From: Owenia fusiformis
Lineage: Eukaryota > Annelida > Polychaeta > Sabellida > Oweniidae
Direction of reading: 5' to 3'
Length of the DNA: 64,000 nt
Assembly (NCBI GenBank): GCA_903813345.2
Contig: CAIIXF020000011.1
Span: 34,464,166 to 34,528,165, forward strand
The notes beneath the pieces are model-generated. The model saw only the letters and a list, made by a program, of their open reading frames with translations, did no database searches and was not told where the DNA came from. Positions within the stretch are counted from its first letter, which is position 1. The number at the start of each line of letters is the position of its first letter. Positions 2,926 to 55,813 of this stretch are shown in pieces. Both the position numbers and the translations under genes were made by a program.

Positions 2926-5900
2926 CTGGAAATAAATAAACAAATACGTAGATTAACACTTTGTACAATTCCCGAGAACTTGACTCTTTTCTCATAATAT
3001 TTATTATTATATACGTATATCAGTTAAACTTTTTACAATTTACACTCTTTATATGAGACACATTTCTTTGATGTCCTTTTATCCAATTAGAATGTGAAGT
3101 CAGAAAATCAGAACATACATATTCTGCTTTTAAGTAGCTGACAAACTCCCCAAAATATCCACGAAAGCTTCATTAAATGGTTCTGGATTATCAATAGTGG
3201 TGCATGCAGTATATGGTCGTAAGAGTCACATTATTGATATGATGTAGTGAGAACCTTGAATAATTGTGTCGAATCCAGTGTTAAGTATCGTGACTCGCTC
3301 AAGTCTGTTTAAGCCACTATAGCGAACTAATTCCAACTAACTTATATGTTTCAAAGTGTAAATATAATATATGAAGTAAGACAATTAAAGTGTAGTGTTG
3401 AAATAGGAGAAAGTGAGTAATTGTTTTTGAAGTGAACTTTTTCTTATTTTCTTTCCTAATTTTTAAAGAATAGAGACATGAAAAGACTTTTTAAATTGAA
3501 TTATTTAATTTTTAATTGATCCAAATGTTTTATTTTCTGGCATTTCTTTTAGATACCTGTCCTTCAAAATCACATTACCATGAAGAGTTTAAAGTGATAC
3601 ATAGCAAAGAGGCCCTACCTGTTGTAGATCTAGTACCCTTGGTTGTACCCAGGTCATCTGCACCTTCTGGTCAACTTGGTCAATTCTACCCTTCACTAAT
3701 TGAAGCGACAGTGCCTTCATGACCAGGAGTTCAACTTCGCCTAATGGCAGCTTGGTTTCTGCTGAGATTTCTTCAAAGGATAGTTGTCTGTTATTGGCTG
3801 GTCTTTTAAAGGTCATCTGTAAGATCAATTCAAAGTTCATCATGTACCATTTTAAGGCATTCAAGGATTGATGCTATCAAGTCTCTTTCAGAAAAAGATT
3901 CACTTGAAAGTATTCAATTTCGCCTTTAGACTTCAATTCAAACCATTGTGGGTTTGATTGAGTCTCTACTATCTAAGAAGCGTCAGATAAAGATACAGAC
4001 TACATTATTATAGCTTTGTGCAGGTATGTATTTTTGCATTTTTGAAGATATGTCCAAACCCTGTCTTTACTGGGGATGTACTGGGCATAATTAACAAACA
4101 ATATCAGCATATTATTTAAAAGTTGCATGTAATACATGATTCTTGGTCATTTTACCTCCATTAGACACAGTAAAGAGATTTTCTGTCTGAGAGGAATCTC
4201 CTGAGCTGCAAGATCTGGTTGTGTCTGCCATTGTGGCTTTAATGCTTGGAATTTGGCCAGATCTCCACTATTGAAAGCATACAGAGTGTCCACAAGCCAT
4301 TGTTTTTCTGTATTCCTCAGTGTGTCTAGTATAGGGTGAGCCAACTGAAACGGAACATAATAGAGTACATTTTTTTCTAAAGGTTTTACACAGAATATTA
4401 TTCAAGAGCTACTCACATTTACTTCTTAAGACATATAATGGCAGAGATCACGGTAGACGTTCGCCATTCGCCAATTGCGAATTTTCGAAAGAGGTGGCGA
4501 AAAATATATAAAGGTATTTCGCAGTTATGGCGAATTAGAGGTGTCACGGTTTCCCGATATTGAACGAATTTCGGTCCAGATGCTTCGGTTCGGGACATTG
4601 GACAGAAAGGGTTAATATCGGGTCATAGATTCCTTCCCTAAAATGCATAAAAACCTGTATAAATAGCGAGGAACACCTCCGATTTCGTTCTGAAAAATTA
4701 AATATTTTCACTTACCTCGTACCTAGATTACACTTCTTTGCATGAAAAGTGTTATCAACGGACCCGCGATTTCAGGTAGATGGTAATGCTTGTTCGTAAA
4801 TTTCTTCATCGTCGTTCGCAAATTGAGTGCATTATCAGAATGCCGGATGTAGGAAAGAAATTGGAAAATCGAGCCGGCATCTAAGTTGAAAAAGTCCGCA
4901 GTTTGGAAGTATTTTGGGACTCCGATATCACAAGGTAAACGAATTGGTGATATTTCACCGTGCAGACTATGTGAAATGCCGATCACATTCGCGGCAGATG
5001 CTTTACATTCAATTTTAATTGACGTTTTTTTTATTTCTGAATATGATTTTGAAAAGTGAAACTGAAAGTGAAACTGTCATCATCAGGCATTGCATCATTT
5101 TTCATGTTCTGCCCGTCCCGTCCCGAATGTAATGTGTCGAGACCATTTGTACCGTTCCGTACCGTACCGAAATTTTCTTGGACCGTGACACCTCTATTGC
5201 GAATTCCCTTTTTATGGTTTTTCAAAATGGCTAATTCATATTTTGGTTGGCTAAAAAAATTTTGGAAGATTTAGCCACAATGGCTAACAAGTTTTTTCAA
5301 CTATCGTGATCTCTGATAATGGAGGATCTTTTCTTTATGTATCTCATTGATCACTATGGTAACATGAATACACTTTTGTGATAGAATTAGTATGTGTAAA
5401 GGTGATTCCTTTGTATTTCTCAATTTCTACTACTTCTCATATAGAAATCTAACCTCTACCTCTACTTACCAGCTCTCCAAAGTTGTACACCCCCTCCCCT
5501 ACCTAACCTCTACTTACCAGCTCCCCAAAGTTCTACACCCCCTCCCCTACCTAACCTCTACCTCTACTTACCAGCTCTCCAAAGTTGTACACCCCCTCCC
5601 CAACCTAACCTCTACCTCTACTTACCAGCTCTCCAAAGTTGTACACCCCCTCCCCTACCTAACCACTACCTCTACTTACCAGCTCTCCAAAGTTGTACAC
5701 CCCCTCCCCAACCTAACCTCTACCTCTACTTACCAGCTCCCCAAAGTTCTACACCCCCTCCCCTACCTAACCTCTACCTCTACTTACCAGCTCTCCAAAG
5801 TTGTACACCCTCTCCCCAACCTAACCTCTACCTCTACTTACCAGCTCTCCAAAGTTGTACACCCCCTCCCCCAGTAGGGCAGCCAGGGCAAGATTAAATG

Positions 5901-8900
5901 CCCTCTCTAACTGGTCTGAAACTGGAATAAAACACATTATACTCATTAATTGGAGAACAGTAATGAGAGAGTCTGGCTTATCCATATAACAGTACAAAGT
6001 AACAGTAATGGGATATAATAAAGACAGATCTTGGATTTGAATTTTGTTTATCTGGTCACATTGTAGATTTAAAAGTGATGTATTGGCCACCCCGCAGATT
6101 TACACAAATGACACATATTTACATGGTAGGTTTCTTAGGCCTGTAGGGTTCGGTGGGTTCGAGCAAACCTGGTCTAAAATTCTTTCAAAATCAAGCAGTT
6201 TTTCACCATTCTGAGTACTTTTCAAATGAATTTGACCATTTTTGGGCCAAAGTTGTCAAAAGTGAACCCCCCTTGAATTTTTCAAAAGTTGAACCCCCTT
6301 GGCAAATCCTAGCTATGGGCCTGTTTCTCACCTGGAATTTCCTTGAGATCAATACATCCTAGAAAACGCAGAGCATCTTTATAATACTCAGCATGGTTCC
6401 CCATTAACTTGTGGTAATTGCTGGAAAGTTCGTAAAATCTTCCGTGAACTGAGGTAACGCCATCTATAGTCTCTAGAAGTTGGTCTGTATCTTCTACAAG
6501 TTTCTGAAAGAATATTTTTGGAATTATCTAGTTTTCTATCCGAAGTACACAACACAAAATATCACTTTGACAAATCCTTTCACTTCTACTTCCTCTAAGT
6601 CTTTTCCCATCTCCTGACAACTGTGCAGAACTTTGTGATTTTAAATATGTTGATATTTGGGCAATAGTACCACATGGGGTTATGTGAGCTTTAAGGAGAC
6701 ATTTACTTGTGCCATTTTCTCTTTATCCTTTAAATTATCCGACAATACTTATGAACAAAGGAATGGGAATATGCCCTGACAGAGAATAGACCTAAGCGGG
6801 CCTCCAGTTGTAAATACAGCGAAACATGTAAAGTGAAACACCTCTAGAAGTAGAATACTATAGGTCTGTGATTAGTTATTCAGGTTTTTTTAGGGGCTTA
6901 CCAAAATTATCAAACATGACCGGATCTTGGTCAAATTTCATACTTATGATGTACGAAAGATTTGTGACAAATTTTATTTGTTGTTGCTATGGTAACTATG
7001 TCTCTCTTGTTGCCATAGCAACGGTAACTTCAGCTGGTTAAGTCTACTGTAGACGCCCAAGATTACCATATTACTTAAATCTGACACCATATTTGGACTC
7101 AGCAGGTCAAAATTACCTAAAATTGAAATTTTCATGAAAAAATTCAAATTTTATATAAAGATACAACAGTTTATTTCTTACTATGCAGGTCTGTAAGGAC
7201 CCATATAAAAAACTCAAATTTAGCAGTTTTTTGAAAATTAAAAGAAATTAAATAGATAAATAAATGTTGTGCAACAGTATCAAATATTGTCAAATCTTCA
7301 ACACTTTACATAACAACGATGTATGATGACCTCCAAACATTTCTTTATGGTTGTTGCTATGGTAACTATGTCCACCTTGTTGCCATAGCAACAGCAGTTT
7401 CAGTTGGTTTGGTCAACTGAAGACCTCTCGGATTATGTTATCTTTAAAATCTGACACTGTTTTTGGACTCAGCAGGTCATTTATACCTTGTATTGAAGTT
7501 TTCATAAAAATATTCACATTTGAGGAAAAGATACAGCATGTTATTTCTTATTATACAGGTTTTTAAGGTATCGTATAAAAATATCAAAAGTGATTTTTAG
7601 AAAACAAAAACTAAATTAATTAATTGATAAATAGAAGTTGAGCAACAGTATCATACATTGTCCAATTTTATTCACTTTTTAGACCAATGACGTTTGATAA
7701 CATTCTAATATTTTTATTTGGCCATTTCTATGGTAACTATGTCCACTTGGTTGCCATAGCAACGACTGATTTAGTTGCCTTTGTCAACTGAAGACCTCCT
7801 TAATTATGTCCTTTCTAAAATCTGACACCATTTTTGGACTCAGCATGTCATTTTTTATCTATTCCTGAGATGTAATAAACATATTTCGATTTTACAAAAT
7901 TATATTACATGTTAAAGTTTACTATGCAGGTTGGTATGTAGGAAATAAGGATCTCTTTCAATACATTAATGACTTTAGAGAAAAAATAATGGATGTTGAG
8001 AAGAACCATCAAACACTGTTCGGTCTTAATCAATTCTTTTTCTGATGATGTGTGATGACCTTTTCATATTTCTGCTTGATTGATGCTATGGCAACTACAT
8101 GTATGTCCACTGTGTTGCCATAGCAACGATGAATAAAGGTGATTTTGTTCATTGTATAGCCGCAACTACAAGGTTACAGAAATATAACAATCTGACACCA
8201 TATTTGGAATTAGTTAATCAAACTTACCTATTGTATATTAAAATATGGAAACATTTTTTTAAGATACTAACTTTTTACAGCATATTGATGGTTACTAAGA
8301 AAATTTAAACCTAGGAAATGACAACAATTTATGAACTTTAAACCGAAAAATTTAACAAAATATGTCTTTCAGATGTCATCGAACACTGCCAAAATCTCAA
8401 ATTTCACGAGTCAACTTCATGTGATTACTGTATGACATATCTATTTTTGTTACTATGGAAACCAGGTGTTGGGTTAACCATAGCAAGAGTTATCCAACGT
8501 GATTTGATCTCTTCTAGACACCCTGGATAATGCTATGATAAAATTCTAACACTATATTTGGACTCAGCAGGTAACCTTTAATATAAATGTTCTAATACAG
8601 TATCATGAAGAGATACAACATGTCATTGGTTACCTTGTTGGTTTGAAGTTTGAACATTACAAACCATTCAAATTGCTCAATTCGATAAATTTAAGAAAGT
8701 TCAGAAACCATAGATGGTAAGGAGCAGCCATCAAAAATTGCATAATTATAATACATCCATACTTTTGGCATTAAATAACTTTGATATTACTGATTTGTCA
8801 TTGCCATGGTAACCACTAGCTTGTTTTACCATAGCAACCGTTGTTTAAAGTTAATTTTTTCCATTGTAGACAAACTGGATTATAGTATACTTAAAATCAG

Positions 8901-11900
8901 ACACCATATTTGCAACCAAGAAAAAATTGTTCACTATGTTTTTTACAAATATTCATAAATATGGATTATTTTGGGAGGGTTGAGGATTTTAATATACAGA
9001 CACACAAATTAATCAATATTGTTTCATAATGCTTTTACATTTTTATTTTTATTGTTGCTGTTGTACCAAAGTCCTCCATATAAGAAGTTAATTTTTTGCT
9101 GTGCAGTGTGCACATCTTCAAACACCCAAGAAGTGTAAAATGCACATAAAAGAGTTCAAGAACAAGCACTTACATTCACCAATGAATAGTTATACTTAAA
9201 TTTTAACCAGTGTACAAGCACCAGCACAACTGCCGCCAGTATGAAATAAATTATATAGATAAATCTTCTCAAGTTCACATGGTGTATATAATATCTATGT
9301 AAGATAAAAAAAATAATCAGTGTGGCTTAATGAATAAGAGATGATGAATAAAATTTATGAAACTGCATAACAAATATAAAACTCATCTGGATATAATAGG
9401 GTGAACTTTTACTTACAATATCTTAAATACTCTTGTAAGAATCTAGCTACTGTAGATACACTTAATTTGGCTCCCGTTTTAATATGACAGATTGGCGGAT
9501 TCAGAAAATCCGCCAAATAAGAATCCATCAAATTTCAGTTTGGAATTTTTGTCCAATGCACTTCAGAAATTAAACTCCATGGGCCCCTTTTCCTGACAAT
9601 ATGTCATCAATTCTACATTATTCCAAAAGAAATACAGAAAATATTTTTGTAAAAACCTGTCCTAATGACATAAACATCTACAAAAATTAAAGAGCCACCA
9701 ATATTTAGAATTGAGCAAATCCGTCAAATTGAGTAGCATCAAAATAAGTGTATCTACAGTATAATTGCACTTAAATAGCTATTAACATGTTTGTTTAACA
9801 ACTCCTACGAGATCAAAGATGAGTGAAATTGATATTGAACATAGTTCAAATCAAGAGTCTAGTTTGCAGTCTTTTTATAATTGACAAAATCTAAGACCTC
9901 GTCCTCTGATATTGATTCAAGTCAATGATGACAACAATTGTTAGTCATAAGAATTACAAACCACTATAATTTTTTTAGAAAAGCAAGGGTTATGAATACT
10001 GTACTCCTGGTAATTTTTGCATGGTATTATATTTTGCGCTTTAACGAGTTGTGGAAAATTCACAAAATATAATAGCCACAGAATTCCAATAATTCTAATT
10101 CGTGAAATACAAAATTCCACGGAATTAGTTTCATTTATTCAATAAAAGAAATTAGAAAAATAAGCTGAAAAAATTTTGAGAAATTACAAATCCACGAAAA
10201 TTAATAATTGCAAAGTTTAAAAAATTGAAATTTAGTGAAAATTAAGTAGGAAAAGATCAAGGAAATCAAAAGCCTTGACTGATGTAGCTTTAAAAACTTG
10301 GTCCATTGTCATCATCCTCATTCGAGTCATGATGCATGCCAACTTTATGTTTATGTTAATTTAAGATAGTTTTTTCTATATTTCAGATGTCACTTTATGA
10401 TAACATGAAGGTAATTTTAAATTTGAGTGTGATTCAGGTCATGACGGTGATCATCAGCACAGAAGTTATTGATGATAGCCCATGCACACTCAATAGATTA
10501 GAATCCAAAGTGATATTTGGTTGTGAACAATTTCACATTCACGAATGGCATAACCTGGACTTTAAACAGATGGAATTACTTGTTAATCCAAATATATCTA
10601 CAAACACAATGTTGGGGGATAATCTCAAACATTTATTTTAAATGTGATCAAAGTAAAGATACATGTACAAAGTATCATACATTTCGCCACCCTTATACAA
10701 TCTTGTATTATACATCACATAGGAGTGGGCGGGTGGGAGCAATTTCTGCTAAACTTAAAAACTATGGCTGCTGTACACATGGCTTAAACATTAACAAATC
10801 AGCAGACAGCATGCCCCTTACATCAATGAACAATAACAAATATCCTATTTAAAATCAAATAAAACTTGCAGTCTTATTTTTATATTAAACAGATGGAATT
10901 ACTTGTTAATCCAAATATATCTACAAACACAATGTTGGGGGATAATCTCAAACATTTATTTTAAATGTGATCAAAGTAAAGATACATGTACAAAGTATCA
11001 TACATTTCGCCAATTGATATCCCCAAACATTACTCTACAATTGAAGCTCCTAACAAGAGAGCTTTAGAAACCTTCACATTCATCTCTTCCTGTATTGTGA
11101 CATAACGTTCATAGCAGTTGGATGCCCAGTCTCCTCTCAGTTTGATCAATGCAACTGGAATCCCAAGGGAGAAGGCAAATGAGCAACCTCCTCTACGAAA
11201 CGAATGGCCACTGTACAATTTGCTGTCTATACCAACCTTATCAAGGCACTCTTTCAAGCGCCCTACAAACAAATTATATGTTAAACTTGTGATTCTATCA
11301 TTTTCCCCTACAAAGGAGAACAATGGACACTGTCCACTCCCACCAGGTATCCTGCTTAACATATTCTTGATAGCAGCCACAGGATCTAAATTAACCTGAC
11401 AATCAGCCAATCCACAAAGTGGAATTTGAAGAACTTTCTGACCAAACTGAATAGTTTTTGAATGCCTAACAGTAAGTAGTATCTCATGCTCAGACTTAAA
11501 ATTCACATCTGATATCAACAATGTTTTCTCACATGCTGTTTTAATACACTTAGGTATTAAGGTAGATTTTCTCATAAATGTGTAGAATGCTACTAAGCAG
11601 GCTGCCCAAAAAGCAGTGTCAAGATTGGATGTTGTAAGAACACTAAAGATAGCCTGTAGTAATTTTGGTGTGATTGGAAGCTTTTGTTTTGGAGGCTTGC
11701 CATGTGTTCTTTTTATCCCTTTTAACATACCCTTTGCATTCGTTCAACTTCACTTCTTAAAAGAGAGCTCCGTCTTCACTCTTTTAAACTAAAATAAACC
11801 TGTGAACTCACCGCGCCAATCAGTGCTCGTCGGCCAAATTTGACCGACGTTCTATACATGGTCATTCCTTCTGACGTCATCGTTAAGCCCGGAATTGACC

Positions 11901-14900
11901 AATGACAATTCAGAATTTATTTTGGCGCGTGTTTCCTCAATCTCGCTGATTGGTAGAAGAAAGGTCAGCGCGTAGGTCAGAAGTGATTTATTACCCGAAC
12001 TGTCACCGGCACCTGTTGTGGGGGCGGTGCTACTAAACTGTAATATGGTTTCTACTAGGCAGAGTGTAGTTTAACTAAACTCTGCACTCAGGGTACTTTT
12101 AACACTGTCTTGTAATCAAAATTGAATAAAGGGTTAGCTATCCCTACACATTCATGCATAATCCTTACCATGTTCATATAACCAGGAATGCTTGTAGGAT
12201 TAAGTGTTCGAGCCAGAAATGTCATATATGCCACAATAGTCATTTGTGTAGCTGGCACAGGAACTAAATTAAAATAAGTACAGAACCTCAAATAGACCAA
12301 TCGCATTGATTCATATGTTTTCTTAGTTGAATCTGCATATGCTGCCTGTCTATACCCAGAAGTCTCTTTAATAAGGTCATTCCACTCACTTAACAAACCT
12401 GCAATACAATATTATGAGCAGAATAAGACATATGCCCATACAAATTAAAAAACAGTTCTTTGTTATATATGTTATAATATAGAGGCACCTTAACTACTTT
12501 ACATAAGCTATTTAAACAGTTTTTCTCTGTCAATCTGCTTATAATATCACTGACAAAGTTAGCTTTTGTATTAATGTAGCGAGCAGTAATATGAAAGTTA
12601 TATTGAACTGATAGCCAAAACAATGTGCGGAGCCATTCCATGACAGTTTTGTTCTTGCTGGTTCCTTTATTAATTTGAAACATTGTAGCTATATTATCTG
12701 TATAAACTACTATATGAGTGTCTCGCCAGTATGTAGCCCAGCGTTTTGCTGCTAGGACTACAGTTATAAGTTCCTTCTCATTTATGTGTAAATCAGCCAC
12801 TGAAGGATAATCTGCAGACCAATTAACATAAAACCAGTCATTTGCATATGCCGCACCAGCACCAGCAAGGCATGAGTCACTTGTAAAAATTCCATTGGGA
12901 GGAATATCCTCAATAAATGGAACAGCGTCTTTGGATTGTTCATATAAAGTAATGCAATCCTTCCACCATTGTATATCTGCGCGTGCTTGCTTGTTTAATC
13001 TTGTGTGATAGTTTCTGCTTTTAATTGAACACATCAGGTTGATTATGCGCCGGAGGAATGTACGGCCTCCACGTATCACCTTTGCCGCCCAGTTCAATTT
13101 CCCTATCAATTTTTGCAGCTCAAGCTTTGTAGCAGATTTTTTATTAATCCATTTTGTCAATAGCATATGAAGGTTAGATACTTTCTCAGATGGTAAGCTT
13201 AGTGTACGTTGTTTACTGTTAATCTGCACTCCCAAATAAGTAAGTTCCTGGCATGGTCGGACTACTTTTTCCCAACTTATACTGAAACCAAGATTTTGGA
13301 GTAAGTTAATCAATTCAGTGTATCCTTTTCCACACTCCTCTTTGGAGTTACCAGTCACTAAGAAATCATCTAAGTAAGATATAACAGAAAAACCCCTGCG
13401 TTTCATCATCCTTGTCACAGAGTTTGATAACTTAGTGAATATATATGGAGCTTTTGAACTTCCAAACATCATACGAGTATCAACTAAATATGTTGGTTCT
13501 TTATGACCTGAGAAAGTCCACTGTAGACCTGAAATATCATAGCACGAGTCGTGAATGCTTACACTTCTATATGCTGCCCGAAGGTCTACCTTCGCAATGT
13601 ATCCATTCACTGGTATTAATTTTAATGCACTATCAATGGTTTCATAAACAAATGGATCATGAGAAACATAACTATTCATGCTAAAATTCTCCGGCCGACT
13701 CCCATCATGAATTAATCTCACTGAACTTCCATCATTTTTTAATATTGCTCCAAGTGCACTAACTATTTTTGGCTTGCTAGACACACAGACATAAGCGCCA
13801 TCCTTTATTTCACGTAAAATTTGTTTTTCTACTAGATCTTTGTATTGCTCCACCGATTTGTTATTGCGCACAAAAACATCCTTCACTGTTGAGAAATCAT
13901 CAATTATTTTAAATCCATCCCTTATGCCCTGTAATATGTATTCGCGATCAATATCATTCCGAAGTTCTTGTTCCCATACATCTAGTTTACTGCTGAGTGG
14001 GCCGGTTACGAAAACGAGGCGGAACGTCCGTGTTTGTATTCCTTTGGGGTGGATTATCTTGGGATTCCACTACCCCGGGTGTTGAGACTTGAGCAGCATG
14101 CTGACTCTCGGGGTGATTCCCATTACATGTTGCACAAGTATGACTATACTTGCACCTAGGACCATATGTGCAGACTTTCTTGTTGTAATCATTACACTTT
14201 TGTTGCCATTTGCTCCAACCTGCTTTCACACGTGATGGTTCTTGAATGGATACGAGGTAATGATCTTTGAAATGTTTGTTAACATCACTCCATGCGACAT
14301 TTTCTTCCGCTACGTATCTACGGTGGACGTCATCCAAGATCATGACCGAGCTAACAGTATATTGTTGTAAATAATCTCCAACCTTTGTTGTATATTCAAT
14401 ATAGTCCATCAATGTTTCATATGATATTCCATCTTTTAACAGTTTTTTCATAATTCGGCCATTAGCAGCTGTCCACTGTGCCACTGTCACTTTCTCGACA
14501 GAGATCTTAGGGTTTTTTGATGGCTGCCATGCGAGTACAACAGAACCAGCTTTGAATAATGGCACTTCAGGCTCCGCACGGTATGATTTGGTCACGAAAT
14601 CAGGAATCAATAAAGGCTTACCCTTTCTCTTTCATGCCAACATCACGTGCACCAGCGCCAGAGTTGTCATTCTGGGCCAATGTCTCCGGTCTTTCAAACA
14701 TATTGGAGATGAGATCGTTCAACTGGCTGTCTTTTTGCAAGTCCTTCATTGTAGTTTTAGTCGAAGGTCCTTTTGTAAATGCCTTTTCCTCATCGGCCTC
14801 GGATAGCTTGTGATTATCAGTTTTTAATTGTTTTATCTCTTTTTCTAGTAATTATAGTTCTCTTTGTTCTAGTAAGGCATCTCTTTCTTTGGTGAGGTCT

Positions 14901-20900: not shown

Positions 20901-23900
20901 TCAGGAGCGTACATCTAGTTACAATTTACGTCACAAAAATACTCTAAATGTTCCATCTTTCAATACTGTAACACATGGCAGACACTCTTTTAGAGTTGAT
21001 GCATGCTTTATATGGAACAATCTACCCAATGATCTCAGAAGTTGTGTATCTCTTACAGAGTTCAAAAAACTAATTAAATCATGGAACGGTGAAAACTGCA
21101 AATGTGCAATATGTAAATGTAAAATGTAAACCTTTCAGATTCTCTGTGCCACTATGTAAATGTATTTTAGTATGACATATGATTTTTTAGTATTTATCTT
21201 GTTAACACTGTTACATGTTTTAAAATTTTATTTTAAAGATTTCTATGTCTATATGTCGGTCAATAGCGCTTGCGCTAATGTTTACTGTACAAAAATTATC
21301 CGACTTGAAATAAATATTGATATGATATGATATACTTACTAAGATTGATCAACTATTATAAAAATGCCGTATAATGCAACGGAGTATATGAGACCTTCTG
21401 AGATATACTACACTCAAGATAGTATAGGAGTAAGGTTCACTGATGGGAATTTCCTAAGTGATGTTTACTACAGCATAATTGAAGGCAATCTTAATCCAAA
21501 TGAGGACATTCCACCTTTGACTGTTGTCTATCATGATGGTAAACCATTTGCACTGGGATGCAGGCGTTTGTATATATACAAAAAACTTGAGGAGCTCGAT
21601 GTTATTCGTAAAGTTATCGTTGAAATAAGCACCCCACAGAGAGAAAGTCATAGATTCCAAAAATTGCTGACTACACAAAATGGCGGGACTTCGATCGAGC
21701 TGAGAGGGCGTTTCAGAGAAAGACGTGCATACGTTTATCCATGGGAGTTCTACAAAAACAGATATCACTATGAAAATTGGACTAAAAGTGAGAAGTTCAA
21801 GGCTAAAAACAGAAGTAAGTAATTCCAGTAAACATACAGATGATGAATATGATATCTTACCAAATATTTTGCACATTTGAATTATCTGAGTGAGCGCCTA
21901 CCAAGAGAAAAAATATCTTTCGCCGAATCTCTATTAGTCCTTGTTGAACCACTGTTTCAAATACCAACACTCAAATATCTACATATCTTGACAAATGAAA
22001 AAAAATATAATTGTCTTTTCTTGTTAAGATCAACTTTTAAGTATACTTCAGTCACAATTTCAGAGAGCTGAAAAATCTAATTCAGTGATGATGTATCATG
22101 TTTTGTTAGAGATATAAATTCAGCTCAACTATTATTTCAAGAATCAGACCACTTTTATCTTACAACAGGTTTAAAATTAAATAAAGAAAAAACAAATGCA
22201 ATGTGGATTGGCTCAAATAAAAACAACATTGAAACGCCATTAAACATAACATGGCAAATAGGGGAAAATGCAAAAGTGAAAATTCTAGGAGTTGGGTTTT
22301 CAAATCAATGTTCAGCTGCACAGATTGAGGAGAACTGGTTACCAAAAATAATTAAAATGGAAACGTTGATAAAAAATTGGAGTAAACGTAATCTCACATT
22401 GAAGGGTAAAATTACTCTTGCAAAAAGTATAATAGCCTCACAAGTGACATCACTTTTAATGTCATTCAAAGCTCCAGATAAATATTTGGAAAGAATAAAT
22501 AGTATCTTACATAAATTTATTTGGGGGAGTGAAAAAGGAAAAGATAGAATAAAAAGAAATGTTTTAAGACAAAGTTATGATAAGGGAGGTTTCAAAATGA
22601 TAGATATTTTTGTAAGTCAGGATGCACTCTTAATGACATGGGTTAAGAGAATTGTTGCAATTGAAAATTCAAATTCAAAATGGAAAGGAATAGCGCTACA
22701 TTACTTAAACAAATGGCGAAGATATTTTTAAATATAATACAAATGAGCGAAACCTTAAATCAAAAATAAAGTTAAAAGAAATTCCAGTTTTCTATGAATA
22801 TTTAGTTAGTATTTGGCTTAAATATCAACATGTTAACAAGATCATAAAAAATGGGACAAGGCAAAAGAAAATGGACGATTTTGCAATATGTGCAATTTAA
22901 ATCAAATTGAATCAATTGAGCATTTTCTATGCCACTGTGAATATTATCATGAAGAACGTTTGGGTTAAACAAATTTTACAATGAGCATTTTGGAATGATG
23001 AGTGATTAAGACACTATGGTAATTGCTTGTGAGAACAATTATCTTTCATTGCAAGTTTTGCCAATCATCCACGCAATGTTCCTAAAAGGGACATTCCTGG
23101 CCAGACCATTTCTATCCTGATATGGTAGCCTTAATCATATTTATGCTTTCCATATTTAGCAAAACATGGGAAAACGTTTTAATATAGTCAATATTGATCA
23201 TTTAAAAAATGTAGTACTCATTTCCAGGAAGCTGCCATCTTTTAAGATTTCACTCAGGAAGTGATGTCACCAACTCTCAACTTTCATGACCTTGCCTAAA
23301 ACAATCTAAGAAAGTAGCACAAAATCGCTTCTAGACAAGTGGTCCTTACTTTATGTACAAAAATATCTTCAGAGCTTGTCAGCTTAAAATAAAAGAAGAG
23401 GTTCTTAAAAGGATTAAATAGTAGACAAAATTGAAAAATAATATTCAGCTGGTTTTGTAATTCTTAGTAGCTCCTTGCCTCATATTATATACAAAGTTGA
23501 GAGTCAATGACATCACTTCCTGAGTGAAATCTTAAGAAGATGGCAGCCTACTGGAATTGAGCACTACATTTTTAAGTGAGCAATGTTGACCATATTAAAA
23601 CATTTTTCCGTGTTCTGCTAAACATGGTAATCATATATATGGTTGTAGCTACCATATTAGGAGAGAGATGGTCTGGCAAGGAATATTCCTTTAAGAGAAA
23701 AGCCTCACTTGCAAATTAAGAGTCTTATACAACTTTGAAACAAATTATAAACATGATTAAATAGCTGAACTTTGTAATAACTTTTTTTTATAATATTATA
23801 CTTGTAACAATAATTTAAAAATAAGACAGTGTGCCATGCTTATAGTATTCACATACCAAATGAACAAAACGCTCCACTACTTTTCGAGTTATAGTAATAG

Positions 23901-26900
23901 TAAAAACTTTAAAATGGCCGTCTACCAAAAGTGTCATTAGACAGTATTCACATACCAAATATGAACAAAATCACTCTACTACTTTTCAAGTTACAGCAAA
24001 AAATGTAAAATAGCGTGTAAAGGCCACCATTTTTCAAGATGGATGCCACGTGCTTCTTCGATATCTACATTTCTAGCTTTATTAATGTCCTATATAATTT
24101 TTTTACATTTAAAACATATTGCTATTATAGTTTTACATATTGTACCTAAATTACTGTAAAATTGGCACTAAAATGGCCAGCATTTTTAAATGAGCAGCCA
24201 TTTTGAAAATCGGCTTTCAAGCAGAACTTCTACCCCAAGAGGGTATATGTGTACAAAATATGAACAAAATTGGGCCAACGGTATTTGAGGTTCTGCCCAG
24301 ACAGACAGAGGCGTTCCCTATATCCCTCCAAACTTCATTCGATGGGTTAACTATTTTTGAATTCCATTGACAGAAAGATGGGGTTATAGATTATAAATAG
24401 ATTTCTTGGAGTGCCAAACTTCCTACTTTATCGAACCATGTTCTTACTCTAACTAAGGCAAAATTCTCTCTCTTTCAGGACGTGCTAGATCAGAAGCAGG
24501 ACTAAGAAATCAACATGATGAACAGAACAGAGCACAATCAGCTTCAAGAATGAACAACAGACAGTCTGTACAGAATACAAGACCAGCTTACGATCAAAGT
24601 GACCAACGAAGATCGAGACCAGTTAACGGAAAAATACCAGAAACTGTATATGATTATGAACGGCCCAAAGCGTATACTACACCAAGCATACCATCGTATG
24701 AACCTACACCGAGGATAACATCGTACGGCACTGAAAACCATAAATCAAATGCAACACAAAGTGTGTCAGCTACAAGAATGAACAACAGACAGTCTGTACA
24801 GAATACAAGACCAGCAAACGATCAAAGTGACCAACGAAGATCGAGACCAGTTAACGGAAAAATACCAGAAACTGTATATGATTATGAACGGCCCAAAGCG
24901 TATACTACACCAAGCATACCATCGTATGAACCTACACCGAGGATAACATCGTACGGCACTGAAAACCATAAATCAAATGCAACACAAAGTGTGTCAGCTA
25001 CAAGAATGAACAACAGACAGTCTGTACAGAATACAAGACCAGCTTACGATCAAAGTGACCAACGAAGATCGAGACCAGTTAACCAAAAAATATCAGAAAC
25101 TGTATATGATTATGAACGGCCCAAAGCGTATACTACACCAAGCATACCATCGTATGAACCTACACCGAGGATAACATCGTACGGCACTGAAAACCATAAA
25201 TCAAATGCAACACAAAGTGTGTCAGCTACAAGAATGAACAACAGACAGTCTGTACAGAATACAAGACCAGCTTACGATCAAAGTGACCAACGAAGATCGA
25301 GACCAGTTAACGGAAAAATACCAGAAACTGTATATGATTATGAACGGCCCAAAGCGTATACTACACCAAGCATAACATTGTATGATACAACAAGCTTAAC
25401 ATCGTATGATACTACACCAAGCATAGCAGATAGCATGACATTGTATGATCATATACCAAGAATAACAGCATATGATTGTTATGAATCGGATGATAGTATA
25501 CCAAGCATAACATTGTATGATACTATACCAAACATAAAATTGTATGATCCAACACCAAGCATAGCATCGATTGATAGCATGACATTGTATGATCATATAC
25601 CAAGAATAACAGCATATGCTTGTTATGAATCGGATGATAGTATACCAAACATAACATTGTATGATACTACCCCAAGCATACCATCGTATAATACTACACC
25701 AAGGATAACATCATCTGCCACTGGTAACCATACATCAAATGCTACACAAAATGCATATATAACTGAGAGCTTTAGTTCATTTACCGATATAAATAGGATA
25801 AGACAAGATAACCCACCAAATTCTGGAAGTGGCGCATACGCAAAACAAAAGAAAAAATCAAAATCATGCCCTGGGTGCACAATACTTTAGAATTTGTTTA
25901 ATTTGCTGACAAGTTCAATATTGTAATATGTGCCCAAAAACCTAATAAACTACATCTTAGTGAGAGGGTAAAGGTCCATGTGCAGTATGGCAAGTGATTT
26001 TAGATAGTCACCATCTAGACCATTTGTATGACATATTGATTGGAGCAGGTGTGTTCCATTTCAAGCCTCGCTTAGTCCTGCTAAACATTGATTGGTTACT
26101 TAAAAGTAATAATATGTCAGAGACTCAGTAGTAGGATTCGTTTTGCAGATGATGAGTCGCTGATTGAAGCTTTTACCAACAGTGTGTATTCAATCGCTAA
26201 GAATGGACTTCAGCATTTTTTTCGGTTCATTATACATTTATTTCAATCATATTGCAGTCAAAAGAGTTACACAGGTCGCTGCCTAGCGCAATGTGCATTA
26301 CAGGCTAGCATTTTGAAATGAATATAAATTAAATTAATTTAATTAATTGAGTGAGTTATACATATAAATGTGCTAACTAGTAGCCTACACCTAATGGTGA
26401 AAAGTAAATCAAAATAAAATAGGTTAGGTTAAGCTAAGAATAAAATCAATGAACCTTCCTTTTAGTTGAGAATCTTGTTGAATTGAGAATGAATTTTTGA
26501 AAATTAAAAATTCAATTTTGTCTTGTCCACTGAGATGGGTCTCAAGGTTTTGCTGCTCAAGGGTTTCTTCAAGGTTTTTCCTTTGTGTTGAATGGCGCTT
26601 ACATTGCAGAATCAGGTGTTTAGGGGTTGCACTCTTACCACAGACACATAGATTAGTTGTGTTGGGAAAATTATGAGCAAACTTTTGTGACTCAAAATAG
26701 AGTCCGCATCTAATTCTGTTTAAGGTAATTTCTTGTTTTCGAGAAAGATTGAGTTTAGAAGTTGTATTGAAGTCATTAAACTTTGAAGATTTCTTTTTGA
26801 TTTTACTTTTGAACAAAGAGATGGTGGGAGTAGACCTCTCTTCTAGTGATAACTTATTCCATTCAGAGATCAATCTTAGCACTGGTCCATTAATTAGTCG

Positions 26901-29900: not shown

Positions 29901-32900
29901 TATGGTAACCAAATGTCATAGTTAATATTATATTTTTTCAATGATATTAATACAATACCAAGCTATCATATACATGTTGCTCCTGACCTAGTATGAACAA
30001 AATCCACCAAGAACTATTTTTTTTAGATAAAACGGTGGAGAACTTTTGGATCAACCCCCGTACATGTATGCTTAATCATCATCATGGGAATTAGGGTGGC
30101 TCAAAAGGAGATATTTTGGTGTAGAGATTTAGGTAAAATTTGATAAAATTTAGGGGTCCCCCACTGACCCTAAATTTTCTGTTTTTTGGCAGAAATCTAC
30201 CAAAATGCATAACACTATCACTGGGAATCTAATTTTGTTATATTTCAAGGATATTTTACAAAGACTGTTCAAATGCTGATTTGAGAAATGCTTAAAAAAA
30301 TACTTGCAGTTAATATTTTTTATGGATAGCTGTGAATTCTGACTAAATAACATTAGAAATTTTTAGAAAAATTCATGATTTGTCTAACAAAGTCTTTCAA
30401 AAACCCCTTTTTGAAATTAAAAAATGTCTTTCAATCATATCTCCCTGTGTCCCTCGAAAAATATCATACCTTATATCAACAATTGTAAACTTTCGGCTGA
30501 TTGGGATTCCGACCATTGGGATTTGGACGAATAGGATTTGAATCATTCAGATTCTGACGAATGGGATTTGGACCATTTGGATTCTAACCCATGGGATTCG
30601 GTCCATTGGGATTCGGACCAATATTATGTCCCCTCTGCATAGCAAATGGTTATTGGGTTATGTGTCAATCTAACCTAGTCTTTTGATTGCTTTTTTAAGG
30701 TTTTATTGTCACAACCCAATTGAAATAGTAGTCTATAGACGTTGTTCTTCAAACATGCAATCTAATAAAAATTAATTCTATGTATGTAGACATAATTTCT
30801 GATAAGTGAGACTTCTGAGAAGTGATTTATAATCTAATACTCCTCGAATCTAATCGATGATATCACTAAAAACAACTGCAACTATCAAGAGCCGATCAGA
30901 AATATTATTCGCAAGCTAGACAACACGACACACAAAAACACAACATCGTGCTGATCAATACAAATATCTTTTACTGACACTCTACTATAACTTATTATAC
31001 TACACAATATTATAACTAAGACTGATCAACTGTTATAATAAAATGCCGTATAATGCAACGGAGTATATGAGACCTTCTGAGATATACTACACTCAAGATA
31101 GTATAGGAGTAAGGTTCACTGATGGGAATCTCCTAAGTGATGTTTACTACAGCATAATTGAAGGCAATCTTAATCCAAATGAGGACATTCCACCTTTGAC
31201 TGTTGTCTATCATGATGGTAAACCATTTGCACTGGGATGCAGGCGTTTGTATATATACAAAAAACTTGAGGAGCTCGATGTTATTCGTAAAGTTATCGTT
31301 GAAATAAGCACCCCACAGAGAGAAAGTCATAGATTCCAAAAATTGCTGACTACACAAAATGGCGGGACTTCGATCGAGCTGAGAGGGCGTTTCAGAGAAA
31401 GACGTGCACACGTTTATCCATGGGAGTTCTACAAAAACAGATATCACTATGAAAATTGGACTAAAAGTGAGAAGTTCAAGGCTAAAGACAGAAGTAAGTG
31501 ACTCCAATGATGAATATGATATCTTACCAAATATTTTGCACGTTTGAAGTGAGAGCCTACCTAGAGAGAAAATATGACTTCTCAGAATCTATATAAGTCC
31601 TTATTGAACCATTGTTTCCCATACTGATTACACATAAATATCAATATGATAAGGTTCAAGAGGTCATCAACTCATCATATTTAACTCCCCTATCATTACA
31701 GCTTGACTTTTTGACAAAAGTTCTATTTAAACTACTTAGACTTCCTTCACCAATAAAAAAAATATAATGTCTTTCAACTTGTTAAGATGGCAGGTTATGA
31801 CTGGGTTGTTCGCAACCTGCATAATATTGCTAAAACAAAAACTCAAAATTGAACACTGTACTAACAGTAATTTTAATATATTTTTTATATTACAAGGTCA
31901 ATCTATTTTGAGAATTTTTATGTAATATTTTAAGTTTGGTGTATCTATAGAATCTATTCTTCTGAGATTTATCGTTATCTGTTGACAGTCATCAAGTCAA
32001 ATCAATAGATTCAGCTCATTTTTGAAATATAACTATTTCTAAATTCCATTGACAGATAGATGGGCTTAGTTAAATAGATTCTTTGAGTACCAAACTACCT
32101 ACCATAATGAACCATGTTCTTAACATAACTGATACAAAAATTTCAAGGCAAAATTCTCACTCTTCCAGGACGTGCTAGATCAGATTCTGGACCAAGAAAT
32201 CAACGTGATCAACAGAGCAGAGCACAATCAGCTACAAGAATGAACAACAGACAACCTATACAGAATACAAGACCAGTTTACGATCAAACTGACCAACAGA
32301 GATCAAGACCAGTTACGCGAAAGATACCAGGGACAACTATATATGATTATGAACAACCCACAGTGTATACTACCCCAAGCATACCATCGTATAATACTAC
32401 ACCATGGATAACATCATCTGCCACTGGTAACCATACATCAAATGCTACACAAAATGCATATATAACTGAGAGCTTTAGTTCATTTATCAATATAAATAGG
32501 ATAAGACAAGATAACCCACCAAATTCTGGAAGTGACGCATACGCAAAACAAAAGAAGAAATCGAAATCATGCCCTGGGTGTACAATACTTTAGAATTTGT
32601 ACTTGCTGACAAAGTCAATATTTCAATATGTGGCAAAAACCTAATAAACTACATGCTAAGGAGAGGCTTGAGGGTAAATGTCCAAAGTATGTAAGTTTTA
32701 TATTTAAGCAAGGCACTAACATGTGCAATGTCATCACCTGCCATTTGTTACAGATGCTGACTACCATAAACAACCAAACACCATCCACAATAAAGGTGGA
32801 TACTATTACAATATGTCACCACTTGTGGTGGCGGCATAAATATCACTCAATTACATTTTTGGAGATATGGAATAGATCCAGAAATATCAGCAAGTTATTC

Positions 32901-39100: not shown

Positions 39101-39437
39101 GATGGAAAACAAAATTTCATAAGTCTCGAGTTTTCTCTGAAAGTCTCGTAGACCCCTTGACATTAAGCAGATGAACATGTAAAATTATAAATAACTCACC
39201 ATTAACCAGTACACAAATCAATGGTCAACTCTAGTTACTAAATGCTTTTATATCAAGACTATGTGCATTTTCTTGGAGTTGTTTTATTTGTACACAAACA
39301 ATCCCTAAAATGAAATCACCAGTTTGTCTTATAAGAAGGGGTCTGTCATTGAAAAAATCATAACAAAGATTTTGCACAATTTGCGTCGTATTAATTGAAG
39401 AATTTCTTCATTTTACCAGAACTGTACTCCGGTAATA
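39101..39437. promoter_or_regulatory. Probable bidirectional promoter between PSMD13 and the ASB-like gene
   Basis: The two start codons point away from each other across 337 bp. The segment is not repetitive, unlike both flanking introns. No TATA box or known motif was recognised with confidence. Confidence 0.55.
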
Positions 39438-39442
39438 ATGAG
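39438..39442 (+). CDS. ASB-like gene exon 1 coding part (ATG + 2 nt)
   Basis: Start codon directly before a strong donor (AATAATGAG|GTAAGG). Only this upstream ATG was found that supplies the phase exon 2 needs. The 5' end of the transcript is unknown. Confidence 0.6.
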
Positions 39443-46179: not shown

Positions 46180-46242
46180 ATGGACAAGTTGAAGAAGGCA
46201 TTAAGCCGAGATAATGACGAGGAAGAAGGGATCGTTACACAG
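46180..46242 (+). CDS. SFT2-type gene exon 1
   Basis: 63 nt, [20 protein letters not shown] plus Gln, donor CAG|GTATGT, phase 0. Confidence 0.92.
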
Positions 46243-52200: not shown

Positions 52201-55200
52201 GATAAGATATATCCTTACAGAGAACTCTATGGATCTGTGACTATGGTCATTCTATTTGTTCCTTGTGAAAACTGATATTAGCCACGGATCCACAAAAAAT
52301 AAAAAAGTCCTAAAATATTTCATAAAATGTTTGGTTAAAAAATGACAAAATATCTGAAATGTTGCAAAAGAAAAATTAAAAATACTTTCCATTAAAAATC
52401 CAGGGTAGAGTAATGATGAGGTACATTGGACCTCTAACAGACTTCCCCTGTGACTTGCATTCAGCTAAATTGTTTTTTTCTTTACAGGGTACAATATTGC
52501 TGTTTTTCCAAAACTGGACTGGATTTGCCATCTTATATACTATAGGAAACGTAGTTGGATTATGCAGGTATTTCAAACATAAATCTTAAATTTTTCGAAA
52601 ACTAGTCAAGATTTTAGGTTTTCCAATTTCCTTGATTAATATTAGCCCTTTAAATATAAAATGTAATGTTTTTGCAACTCTTAGATTATATTAATATTAC
52701 TTATCCCAACTTAAACGTTTGAAATGTTGAAAACTTGAAATTGAGCATCCACATATAGAATACAGTACAATGTATGTAAAAATAAATAAGAAGAAATTTT
52801 ATATCCTATTATAGCATTATCAAATAATTATTTTCAGTACCTGCTTTCTAATGGGCCCCCTCAAACAAATAAAAAAAATGTTCCAAGAAACAAGGCTGAT
52901 CGCCACCATTCTAGTTTTTGTAAGTATTTGTATAATATACTGCTTTTTTATGATGGTCGTACACCATTATGAATTGAAACAGCCATTTTTGAGCTAAATC
53001 TTTAAACTTGTTGGGTACTTAACCTGTATGTACTGATTTTCTGTACCTTATTAAACCATTTGCATTCTATGTTAGAACCCTATGATCAAATGTCACTGGG
53101 TGTATTATGTGGAGATATCATTTCATTATTGCCCAGTGGGGCAAAGGGGTGTAACGTCGACGTAACTTGGACACTTATTTATTAGAAGTAGAATTTCCGT
53201 TTTCCGCCATGTTTGATTTCTGGAATAATTAAAATCTCCCGATATCTTGATACATGCGAGAAAAAAAACATGGCTTCCCCTAGATCGGAAATTAGAGCAA
53301 ATAAACAACAAGGTGTCAAAGTTACCCCACATGTCGAAGTTCCCCCAAAATGGTTTCAACGTTACACCCCTTCGCCATATTGGTCATATTATGTAAATTA
53401 ACACTGAACATTAATATTTTTATGTAAAATGTATTTTTTGTAAATTTTTATGCTCTTATATATAATTTGAATGTCTATGTAACTTTTGCATACTGTACAA
53501 ACACAATCTATAACTATCTGTATTGTCAATTATATGTCAGAAGACAGACTGACATGATTACAAGTCAGTAAAAGAGTTCTGTATATATTATGGTGGTTGC
53601 ATTTTGAATGACCATTTGAATGACGTATGATGATTGGAGCAGGTGTGTCCACTTTCAAGCCTCGCTTAGTCCTGCTCAAAATTGATTGGTTAATAATATG
53701 TCAGAGACTCAGTGACTCACACTCCTCGACCCTTTAACTTTTTGCAATGATATCTCTGGTTATTGCCCCCTCCCTCAATCTTGTAACCTGCAATTTATAC
53801 TTGGTTTCTTTCCTCAATTAAATATGATCAGTGAATTATATTAATAAATTCATAACTTCAATTGTAATATCAGATCATCAGTTAATATATGTTTAAAGAT
53901 CTATGACTCTTCAGTTGTAGTATGATAAGTCAATATGTTATGTTTATTTTTCAGGTAATGATGGCATTAACATTATGTGCTGCTTTGTGGGTATGTACTT
54001 ATATTCTTAGCCTTCTTTTCCCTTTTCCTTCTTCCTTCTTTTCTTTATTCATGTTTTTTTTCAGAGAACGTAACTAGACTTACTACCAGAATTTAGTCAA
54101 TTATACATGGGCGTGGCCAGGTGGGTGGGTGTGACGGTTGCAATCGCATCCCCCCCCACCTCAACAAAAAAAGAAAAAAAGCAATTTTGTAAAATTTGTA
54201 GACAATTTTTTAACAAATTATAGTTTGAAATACTAAGAATGCACCATATACAATGTAAATTTTTAAAAACTTTTGAGTCACTTGTTTCACTCGCAGTGAT
54301 GCAAACTAAAAAAATCACACCCTCATTGACAATATGTAAATGAATTTCCTATTTTCAAATAGAACTATCTATGGTGAAATATCTGACATCCAAATTAATC
54401 CTTGACAAATAGAGGTACTTGCATATTTGGCATCATCTGTATCTGTTGACCTTCTTGGAAGTATTATAACATTCATGTTTCATATGAAAAGTTTGTTGGA
54501 GGAATTGACAATACTGTACATGAAAATCAGACAAATGTTGATAGCATAATTGCTCTGTGTTGTGTTGTCTTAAACTGTTTTGTTATCTAAATCTATTATG
54601 ATACACCCTTGTACATTTTGGATTTTCATTTGAAATACATGAAAAAATTGTATCCAATATTTTCAAAAGATGTTGTAAAATATGTGTTGTTCTAATACAT
54701 TTCATTTTTTCCTTTCAGTGGCATATTCCCATCCTTGCAATTATATTCTGCATTCTTCAGTTCCTAGCGTTGACGTGGTATGCCATATCATACATCCCAT
54801 TTGCAAGGTAAGTCTCAACATCTACATGGTATGCCATATCATACATCCCATTTGCAAGGTAAGTCTCAACATCTACATGGTATGCCATATCATACATCCC
54901 ATTTGCAAGGTAAGTCTCAACATCTACATGGTATGCCATATCATACATCCCATTTGCAAGGTAAGTCTCAACATCTTCATGGTATGCCATATCATACATC
55001 CCATTTGCAAGGTAAGTCTCAACATGTACGTGGTATGCCATATCATACATCCCATTTGCAAGGTAAGTCTCAACATCTTCATGGTATGCCATATCATACA
55101 TCCCATTTGCAAGGTAAGTCTCAACATCTACATGGTATGCCATATCATACATCCCATTTGCAAGGTAAGTCTCAACATCTACATGGTATGCCATATCATA

Positions 55201-55813
55201 CATCCCATTTGCAAGGTAAGTCTCCACATCTTTGTCTTCTTCAGGATGTGGTGACATATTGCTTCCAACTTTTTAATTACAGATGTTTGGCATTGTTACA
55301 GAATCTGTAACAATTGTAACACTTATGTAACAATTTGCAATGAGTTAAGAAGTAATCTTTCGATTAATTTGACATTTCTCCTGTCAACACATTTAGACAT
55401 AGAAAGGCACTTTAATTGAATTGATAATATCATATCATAAGGGAGGTCAAGCCACATTCTTGGTGATATGTTAAGTGGGATAACCCAATAACAGGAAATG
55501 TAGTGAATTATTATTGTATAAATATTCTATTTATTTAATGGATGTCACATCTTTGCTGATGGTTGGTTGGTGTCAGGAAAAGTTCATAGCAATTGTTGAA
55601 AAAACATAGTTAATCTCATCATGGCTACCCGCTCTCCCCCCTCCCAATATAATGAAATTTTAGAGAGTATCCCTTCTTCAAAATCAACTTTCTTCAAAGG
55701 TGTCATTTACTACCCCACTGAAAACTTCTGAAAACTGACACATTATGATTCATATTTTATTTAATTTTAGGGATGCTGTAAAGAAATGTTTTGAGGGTTG
55801 CATTGGGAGCTGA
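46180..55813 (+). CDS. SFT2 domain-containing vesicle transport protein (SFT2D1/SFT2D2 type), seven exons
   Basis: Small four-pass membrane protein of the Golgi, implicated in retrograde fusion of endosome-derived vesicles with the Golgi. Exons 46180-46242, 52085-52171, 52488-52567, 52838-52919, 53955-53990, 54719-54807 and 55771-55813 total 480 nt (159 aa, the usual family length) with perfect phases. Landmarks: the acidic N terminus [33 protein letters not shown], membrane segments [44 protein letters not shown] and [16 protein letters not shown], the conserved [17 protein letters not shown] loop and [15 protein letters not shown] near the end. Exon 6's 3' end and its donor are amplified into a nine-copy minisatellite. 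I cannot choose between SFT2D1 and SFT2D2. Confidence 0.95.
46538..47592. mobile_element. hAT-like non-autonomous element with internal foldback
   Basis: The left end TAGTGTTGTCCCGATGC and the right end GCAACAACACTA are inverted repeats flanked by a perfect 8-bp target-site duplication CTATTAGT (46530-46537 and 47593-47600). The interior has two ~190-bp arms in inverse orientation (about 46886-47080 and 47180-47375, sharing CGAATTAAGTCGATCAGC-type sequence). No transposase. It lies in SFT2 intron 1. Confidence 0.92.
48683..49027. mobile_element. MITE of the TACTGTnnAT family
   Basis: TACTGTCAATTGCTTTAATT at the left and AATTAAAAGTGATTTACAGTA-type inverse end at the right. TTTAATTTGAC occurs inside both ends. 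In SFT2 intron 1. Confidence 0.6.
49635..49770. repeat. Hairpin with ~45-bp arms
   Basis: CTAGATATGGTCTAGCTACA ... GTGACCCCTCCCC at the left pairs with GGGGGGGTCACAGGGGCTTG ... TAGACTATGCTAG at the right. SFT2 intron 1. Confidence 0.75.
50165..50303. repeat. Hairpin element with GC-rich centre
   Basis: GGTTCAGGATATTGGGATTA (50178 onward) is perfectly matched by the inverse ending at 50292 over 24 bases. The centre is CCCTCGGGACCTACGG followed by CCCTCGGG. Confidence 0.85.
51211..51378. repeat. Hairpin element with ~60-bp arms
   Basis: AATATAGACC, AGGGGTTATATCGTCGAATA and GGGCTAGGCACAAA at the left are mirrored by TTTGTGCCTAGCCCC, TATTCGACGATATTACCCCT and GGTCTATATT at the right. Confidence 0.88.
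52085..52171 (+). CDS. SFT2-type gene exon 2
   Basis: 87 nt after GTGTATTTCAG; encodes [17 protein letters not shown] and the start of the first membrane segment; donor ATA|GTAAGT. Confidence 0.95.
52488..52567 (+). CDS. SFT2-type gene exon 3
   Basis: 80 nt after [30 protein letters not shown] then NVVGLC; donor GCAG|GTATTT splits a Ser codon. Confidence 0.93.
52838..52919 (+). CDS. SFT2-type gene exon 4
   Basis: 82 nt after [30 protein letters not shown] then IATILVF; donor TTT|GTAAGT. Confidence 0.95.
53136..53383. repeat. Palindromic element in SFT2 intron 4
   Basis: GGCAAAGGGGTGTAACGTCG at the left pairs with CAACGTTACACCCCTTCGCC at the right, with further inner matches (GACAC/GTGTC, GCCATGTTT/AACATGGC). 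Confidence 0.7.
53626..53722. repeat. Interspersed repeat shared with 26033-26131
   Basis: Same core (TTTCAAGCCTCGCTTAGTCC and TAATATGTCAGAGACTCAGT). Confidence 0.7.
53955..53990 (+). CDS. SFT2-type gene exon 5 (36-nt small exon)
   Basis: Only 12 codons ([12 protein letters not shown]) between TTTTTCAG and TGG|GTATGT, phase 0. Required to join exons 4 and 6 in frame and matched by the family's FTLCAALWW stretch. Confidence 0.9.
54719..54807 (+). CDS. SFT2-type gene exon 6, source of a donor-site minisatellite
   Basis: 89 nt after TTTCCTTTCAG; encodes [20 protein letters not shown] then YAISYIPFA, ending GCAAG|GTAAGT. This first donor must be used: every later copy lies beyond an in-frame TAA formed across the donor (GCA AGG TAA). 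Confidence 0.93.
54774..55233 (+). repeat. 51-bp minisatellite of SFT2 exon-6 end plus its 5' splice site, nine copies
   Basis: Each copy contains TGGTATGCCATATCATACAT, CCCATTTGCAAG|GTAAGT and CTCAACATCT. Donor Gs are at 54808, 54859, 54910, 54961, 55012, 55063, 55114, 55165 and 55216, exactly 51 bp apart. All nine donors are intact, and only the spacer after the donor varies appreciably. The first copy is the real exon end. Confidence 0.96.
55771..55813 (+). CDS. SFT2-type gene terminal exon 7
   Basis: 43 nt after TTAATTTTAG; completes Arg and encodes [13 protein letters not shown] and TGA. A likely poly(A) signal AATAAA is at 56292-56297. Confidence 0.9.

Follow-up and report, generated by a model that had tools for sequence, protein, structure and literature searches.

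Two genes in one 64,000-nucleotide stretch of Owenia fusiformis DNA (C11:34464166-34528165; hereafter the window), PSMD13 and an SFT2 gene, each carry a tandem repeat laid across a 5' splice site (donor), and this raises the question of what kind of array they represent and whether their co-occurrence reflects anything beyond chance. As the preliminary description had reported, arrays of exon end plus donor were found in both genes by Tandem Repeats Finder (TRF) together with a donor search; the genes lie on opposite strands about 49 kb apart, and the two repeat units are unrelated, their longest common string being GGTAAGT. We conclude that both are probably splice-junction minisatellites like those known in lancelets as mirages, grown from a duplication that spanned the exon-intron border. 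Moreover, sampling across the genome supported, in small samples, an excess of such arrays at true exon borders over other occurrences of the same words, for donors and acceptors alike. The features concerned are located in the window as follows.

5449..5871, minus strand: PSMD13 minisatellite, a 54-bp unit x 7.9 (TRF) made of the exon end ...VYNFGEL and the donor GTAAGT, with 8 donors.
5842..5871, minus strand: exonic portion of the first (genuine) PSMD13 unit, the 30 nt before the donor.
4345..5841, minus strand: predicted PSMD13 intron of about 1.5 kb, closed by the unrepeated acceptor CGTTTCAG before LAHPILD.
54776..55231, plus strand: SFT2 minisatellite, a 51-bp unit x 8.9 (TRF) made of the exon end ...SYIPFA-AG and the donor GTAAGT, with 9 donors.
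54719..54807, plus strand: SFT2 exon whose 3' end lies in the first unit, as read from the sequence and Pfam.
54808..55770, plus strand: predicted SFT2 intron of 963 bp, closed by TTTTAG, an unrepeated acceptor that precedes the last coding exon.

The PSMD13 gene was identified by Pfam matches to PSD13_N (4.4e-15) and PCI (2.9e-11), and the SFT2 gene by a Got1/Sft2-like match (1e-05). In both arrays, copy 1 forms the genuine exon end and the remaining copies are intronic. The PSMD13 array (period 54, 92% matches by TRF), entered from an open frame at 5821-6099 on the minus strand, makes up the first ~0.4 kb of the intron, and the first intron bases of its donors fall, in plus-strand coordinates, at 5841, 5787, 5733, 5679, 5625, 5571, 5517 and 5469, that is, at a spacing of 54 six times and then of 48. 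The SFT2 donors (period 51, 97% matches by TRF) run from 54808 to 55216, 51 apart throughout, and the array takes up 424 bp (54808-55231) of the intron. Since reading through the first donor leads to a stop in both genes, after six codons in PSMD13 (VSRGRG*) and immediately in SFT2 (AGG TAA), no donor but the first maintains the frame and gives the normal protein.

Two substitutions are common to copies 3 and 7 of PSMD13, which are not neighbours, as block-wise repeat turnover would give. Together with copy numbers that span 2 to more than 10 among the arrays sampled below, these shared substitutions fit a duplication followed by turnover. Presumably, a short tandem duplication chanced to span the exon-intron border and then grew via ordinary repeat turnover. 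The outermost copy retains the exon and its splice site, and all surplus copies extend into the intron. With the exon preserved in this way, the arrays would be tolerated; the first donor (or the last acceptor) would be the one used, and the surplus copies would be removed with the intron at little harm. That mis-assembly merely inflated the copy number is most improbable: the copies differ by substitutions, PSMD13 contains one shorter spacing, and like arrays were found in many unrelated genes.

Intron birth through tandem duplication of AGGT segments (Rogers type), which the preliminary description had suggested as a related process, is in line with the AG/GT found within the units, and it has been proposed that new introns arise from lancelet mirages (PMC3087553). 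However, the introns of PSMD13 and SFT2 exceed the array, which forms part of a longer intron with its own separate, unrepeated acceptor; both acceptors lie outside the array, whereas Rogers-type copies supply both ends of the new intron. The fit is poor, and we consider this origin very unlikely for the two genes.

The sequence GTAAGT is intact in all 17 donors (8 in PSMD13 and 9 in SFT2), which were located by searching the arrays for GTAAGT itself. Such intactness could be taken to mean that surplus donors are kept for making unproductive or altered mRNA, or that clusters of U1 sites aid the intron; the stops that later donors would introduce in PSMD13 and SFT2, and the reported link between intron minisatellites and splicing choices in C. 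elegans (PMC4039745), point the same way. Nevertheless, the copies are so similar that intact donors require no selection, unit length and read-through differ among genes, and the affected genes appear unrelated, so that a regulatory function seems quite improbable. The unit length divisible by three, which had been proposed as a shared property, holds for PSMD13 and SFT2, where the read-through stops leave it without coding use, but fails as a general rule. Among 25 donor arrays, 9-11 had a unit that is a multiple of three, with no excess (11/25 by script, p = 0.18; 9/25, p = 0.46, on a recount in which the 195 bp of L008 became a spacing of 65 and the 39 bp of L138 a spacing of 38).

The preliminary description had further held that chance was unlikely. 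As far as these two arrays alone are concerned, the choice within the window was made after the fact, and chance was therefore judged by sampling the genome. The assembly (498 Mb, 525 contigs) was sampled by sequence pattern and distinct loci were tallied, raw match counts being set aside because long arrays yield many matches. The GC content was 34% both in the window and in random regions. The first donor word, CAGGTAAGT, occurred 4,020 times and its reversed control, TGAATGGAC, 4,455 times, and paired words with a gap of 25-55 bases gave 205 and 85 matches, respectively. Some of the resulting figures favour a reading by chance and survivorship, in which arrays arise evenly, exonic ones are purged, border ones are tolerated and the pair in the window is a coincidence chosen afterwards. 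Thus, within the range over which CAGGTAAGT loci were counted (C1 to C8:16.84 Mb, ~61% of the assembly), the raw loci barely differed (18 for the donor word and 12 for the control), and three-copy searches on C1 yielded at least five donor arrays versus at least four for a neutral word.

The picture changed when exon status, judged by eye, was considered. A coding exon ended at the first donor in 16 of 20 CAGGTAAGT array loci (all 8 among the three-copy matches listed plus 12 from the paired-word list), and 15 of 40 single CAGGTAAGT sites looked true, the latter sites all coming from C1:0.4-5.1 Mb and some being copies of one dispersed repeat. Counting arrays with a period of their own of 34-64 bp in the same range, we found 10 that lay at a true exon end, 2 that did not and 5 that belonged to the control word. 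The 10 correspond to 1.1% of ~920 true CAGGTAAGT donors, as compared with 2 of ~1,530 other occurrences (p = 0.0016) and 5 of ~2,717 control occurrences (p = 0.0009). The control word had 19 loci overall, 9 of them with a period of 34-64 bp among the matches listed; in the 13 examined, less closely than the donors, no array was seen at an exon border. One control-word array sits within a long open frame, and short-period control-word arrays within long open frames, possibly coding repeats, were noted at L133, L125 and L134. A neutral word, TGGAATGA, gave at least six arrays, and none of the four partly examined (L116-L122) was placed at a border; the unit of the TGGAATGA array at C1:15745726 contains an acceptor-like CTCAG.

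A second donor word, AAGGTAAGT, occurred 7,130 times. True exon ends were found by eye in 7 of the 15 arrays examined (18 loci among the matches listed), to which UGDH adds an eighth, and 6 of 25 single sites looked true, with a seventh possible and one a transposon. The rates were 8 per ~1,200 true donors versus 7 per ~3,430 other occurrences (p = 0.021). For both words together at periods of 34-64 bp, arrays were present at 18 of ~2,120 true donors (0.85%) versus 9 of ~4,960 occurrences elsewhere (0.18%; p = 9e-05), the control word standing at 5 of ~2,717 (~0.18%). The ratio for true donors was 4.9 (1.9-13.5) relative to the same words elsewhere and 4.7 (1.8-14.8) relative to the control word, the ranges including the uncertainty in the estimated true fraction. 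Left out of the 18 CAGGTAAGT loci were four with periods of 17-20 bp and one of two dispersed copies, and out of the 18 AAGGTAAGT loci two with periods of 29-31 bp and UGDH, which was already in the set. In total, 23 of the 35 donor-word array loci examined were true borders by eye, and units in the sampled arrays generally were mostly of 38-67 bp; when the six short-period donor loci were scored as not real, the comparison was 23/41 arrays versus 21/65 singles (p = 0.013, by eye).

Exon status was also assessed with Pfam (E up to 0.001), by scanning all open frames that precede the donor and reach at least 20 codons. Such frames numbered 41 for the arrays, contributed by 31 of 35 loci, and 66 for the single sites, contributed by 51 of 65. 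A host-domain match was obtained for 10/35 array loci versus 7/65 single sites (p = 0.026), with p ranging from 0.021 to 0.057 under other countings. The scan reports families, not sites, and the sites were assigned partly by reading; for three of 41 array references (L008, L010 and L017) the reference point was moved manually to the first donor of the array. The tally left out DUF4322 (arrays) as unassignable and RVT_1 (singles) as a transposon, and took two kinase families as one site. With the kinase families as two single sites p was 0.042, with DUF4322 added too it was 0.021, and with the six short-period donor loci scored as not real (10/41 versus 7/65) it was 0.057. Array exons with Pfam support include Muted (5.9e-15), a ligand-gated channel (2.4e-15), UDP-glucose dehydrogenase (1.5e-10) and MRPL52 (7.6e-07), as well as an NLI-interacting-factor phosphatase, caprin, FANCI, an immunoglobulin domain and a kringle; names of array genes beyond those with Pfam support are presumptive assignments. 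A composition coding score, tried in two versions as a substitute for judgement by eye, was rejected as insensitive, for exons with a Pfam E near 1e-15 scored low.

Several points weigh against the interpretation of border-grown arrays in excess at true borders. When all periods were counted, the ratios dropped to 2.4 relative to the same words (p = 0.009) and to 1.9 relative to the control word (p = 0.055), and the limit of 34-64 bp, which matches the searched gap, was imposed once the lists had been viewed. The exon calls were made mostly by eye and not blind, the single-site samples all came from a single contig, within 5.1 Mb of its start, and the controls (the same words elsewhere and the control word) were unmatched for genic DNA. 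The composition score placed 4/35 arrays and 11/65 singles above the 95% point of its null, with no difference between them. Use of the first donor is, moreover, predicted from the sequence, and a stop precedes the next donor in just 13 of 25 donor arrays, the frame permitting later donors in the other 12. Of these points, the all-period ratio to the control word joins the near-equal locus counts in favour of chance with survivorship. That reading is opposed by the same-word test at periods of 34-64 bp (p = 9e-05), which holds in both words, by the all-period comparison with the same words and by the Pfam comparison, also when the kinase families are taken as two sites; we regard it as possible but unlikely. 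We judge it likeliest that unique, transcribed DNA beside exons may form or keep such duplications more readily, and that those lying wholly within exons would mostly be purged by selection.

The excess at donors predicted by the preliminary description, which had named random intronic positions as the comparison, was thus obtained relative to other occurrences of the same words and to one control word, in small, partly hand-judged samples; the donor-specific lesion that it had envisaged was not borne out by the acceptors. The acceptor word TTTTTCAGG occurred 14,155 times and its reversed control 8,571 times, part of the surplus being a dispersed element with inverted copies. Eight of 20 TTTTTCAGG arrays end in a true exon start by eye (24 loci on C1-C8, of which 20 were examined; the locus count covers C1-C8, with C9-C12 and the small contigs left out), and Pfam matches in their exons include Nup93 (5.5e-16), FERM_C (1.8e-15) and a zinc finger. 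Three of 20 single TTTTTCAGG sites looked true. The rates, by eye and at periods of 34-64 bp, were 8/~1,295 versus ~7/7,340, a ratio of 6.2 (1.4-34.7), which became 3.8 (p = 0.006) with all 12 other examined loci and 2.8 (p = 0.02) with all 16 others on C1-C8; at a true fraction of 38%, the acceptor excess would lose its significance (p = 0.17).

A mechanism with a preference for duplicating 5' splice sites, for example at U1-bound sites or through R-loops, would account for donors in excess. However, the ratio of donor to acceptor rates was 1.4 (0.3-5.2; p = 0.55), a range that still holds a few-fold difference, and because acceptors have a similar rate the excess is not donor-specific. The donor excess gives a U1 cause no special support, and such a mechanism is improbable. 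Whether borders at both intron ends are germ-line duplication hot spots, several-fold over background and linked to transcription or splicing, so that the arrays form a genome-wide class, is a broader proposal that we hold doubtful.

The TTTTTCAGG inverted pairs, ~180-190 bp apart and resembling a palindromic element, inflate the acceptor word count; on C1 they were seen at 1161156/1161347, 1207774/1207957, 1449723/1449902, 1784394/1784585 and 2568867/2569058. As for random DNA, 14 random 10-kb stretches contained one two-copy array and one satellite at periods of 34-64 bp and at least 90% identity (TRF), too few for a rate. The satellite-bearing stretch L072 (C2, 358-10000) holds a 61-bp unit in at least 157 copies up to its end. 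In another, L075 (C3, 1957-3299), a 112-bp x 12 array lies across an apparent acceptor and exon start, and its last copy enters an open frame that ends at a donor-like GTAAGC.

Where the junction falls within the unit was also considered. With TRF edges the units seemed to lean towards the exon, but this was gone with symmetric extension (0.55 versus 0.47 expected, p = 0.12, n = 25), a test that counted several periods as doubled. In acceptor units the exonic part was under expectation in 8/9 (p = 0.04), from which, with the same doubled-period flaw, no conclusion was drawn. A preferred junction position at donors is not supported.

The assignment of the window arrays to the lancelet kind follows from a comparison of features. 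Lancelet mirages were described in Adh3 and two globins, at both borders, with units of 10-160 bp, many containing AG/GT; RT-PCR (reverse transcription PCR) suggests normal splicing, and the Adh3 array is somatically unstable (PMC3087553). They occur also in PGBD5 and troponin C, the PGBD5 repeats being imperfect (PMC3902484). The arrays reported here are likewise direct tandem repeats of minisatellite-sized units (54 bp x 7.9 and 51 bp x 8.9) that cross the exon-intron border with AG/GT and leave the genuine border in the outermost copy, and they affect both donors and acceptors (23/35 and 8/20 loci). In contrast to the gene-by-gene lancelet reports, they come from many genes of one genome, with a rough rate, and whereas splicing and instability were shown for lancelets, ours are known from the sequence of one assembly. 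The novelty is accordingly this rough frequency for one genome, the kind of array being already known from lancelets; no genome-wide count of border arrays was found in the open-licence literature searched, which is weak evidence of absence.

In human segmental-duplication genes, internal tandem repeats at exon-intron boundaries are able to alter splicing; these are copy-variable, belong to recent primate paralogues and include some novel introns (PMC2812944), whereas ordinary genes with an intron already present are affected here. Intron gain or complex introns via tandem duplication in potato RdRp (PMC4974935) and the Lipomyces stwintrons (PMC7138796) share a duplicated segment that carries a splice signal, but involve a new or nested intron instead of an existing one with its own acceptor. 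Near-identical splice sites, 2 to more than 10 in ordinary genes, offer a natural test of how the spliceosome chooses among equals, and border arrays may be raw material for alternative exon ends. If the border excess is true, there would be one class of tandem duplication tied to gene structure, bearing on minisatellites and on intron change, and the lancelet mirages would be one instance of something wider.

Among the sampled loci, a larger segment in which an acceptor and exon are themselves repeated lies upstream of a tetraspanin-like donor array at L002 (C1:442046-443246). Elsewhere in the window, a 477-codon open frame at 24457-25890 contains an in-frame 228-bp x 3.7 repeat and ends in CTIL, resembling a prenylation box, with a shorter relative at 32129-32593; 21349-21822 and 31016-31501 form another related pair. 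Open frames at 11030-14631 and at 26424-29582 (minus strand) look as if they encode a reverse transcriptase together with a tyrosine recombinase, which we take to be DIRS-like, and a second long reverse transcriptase.

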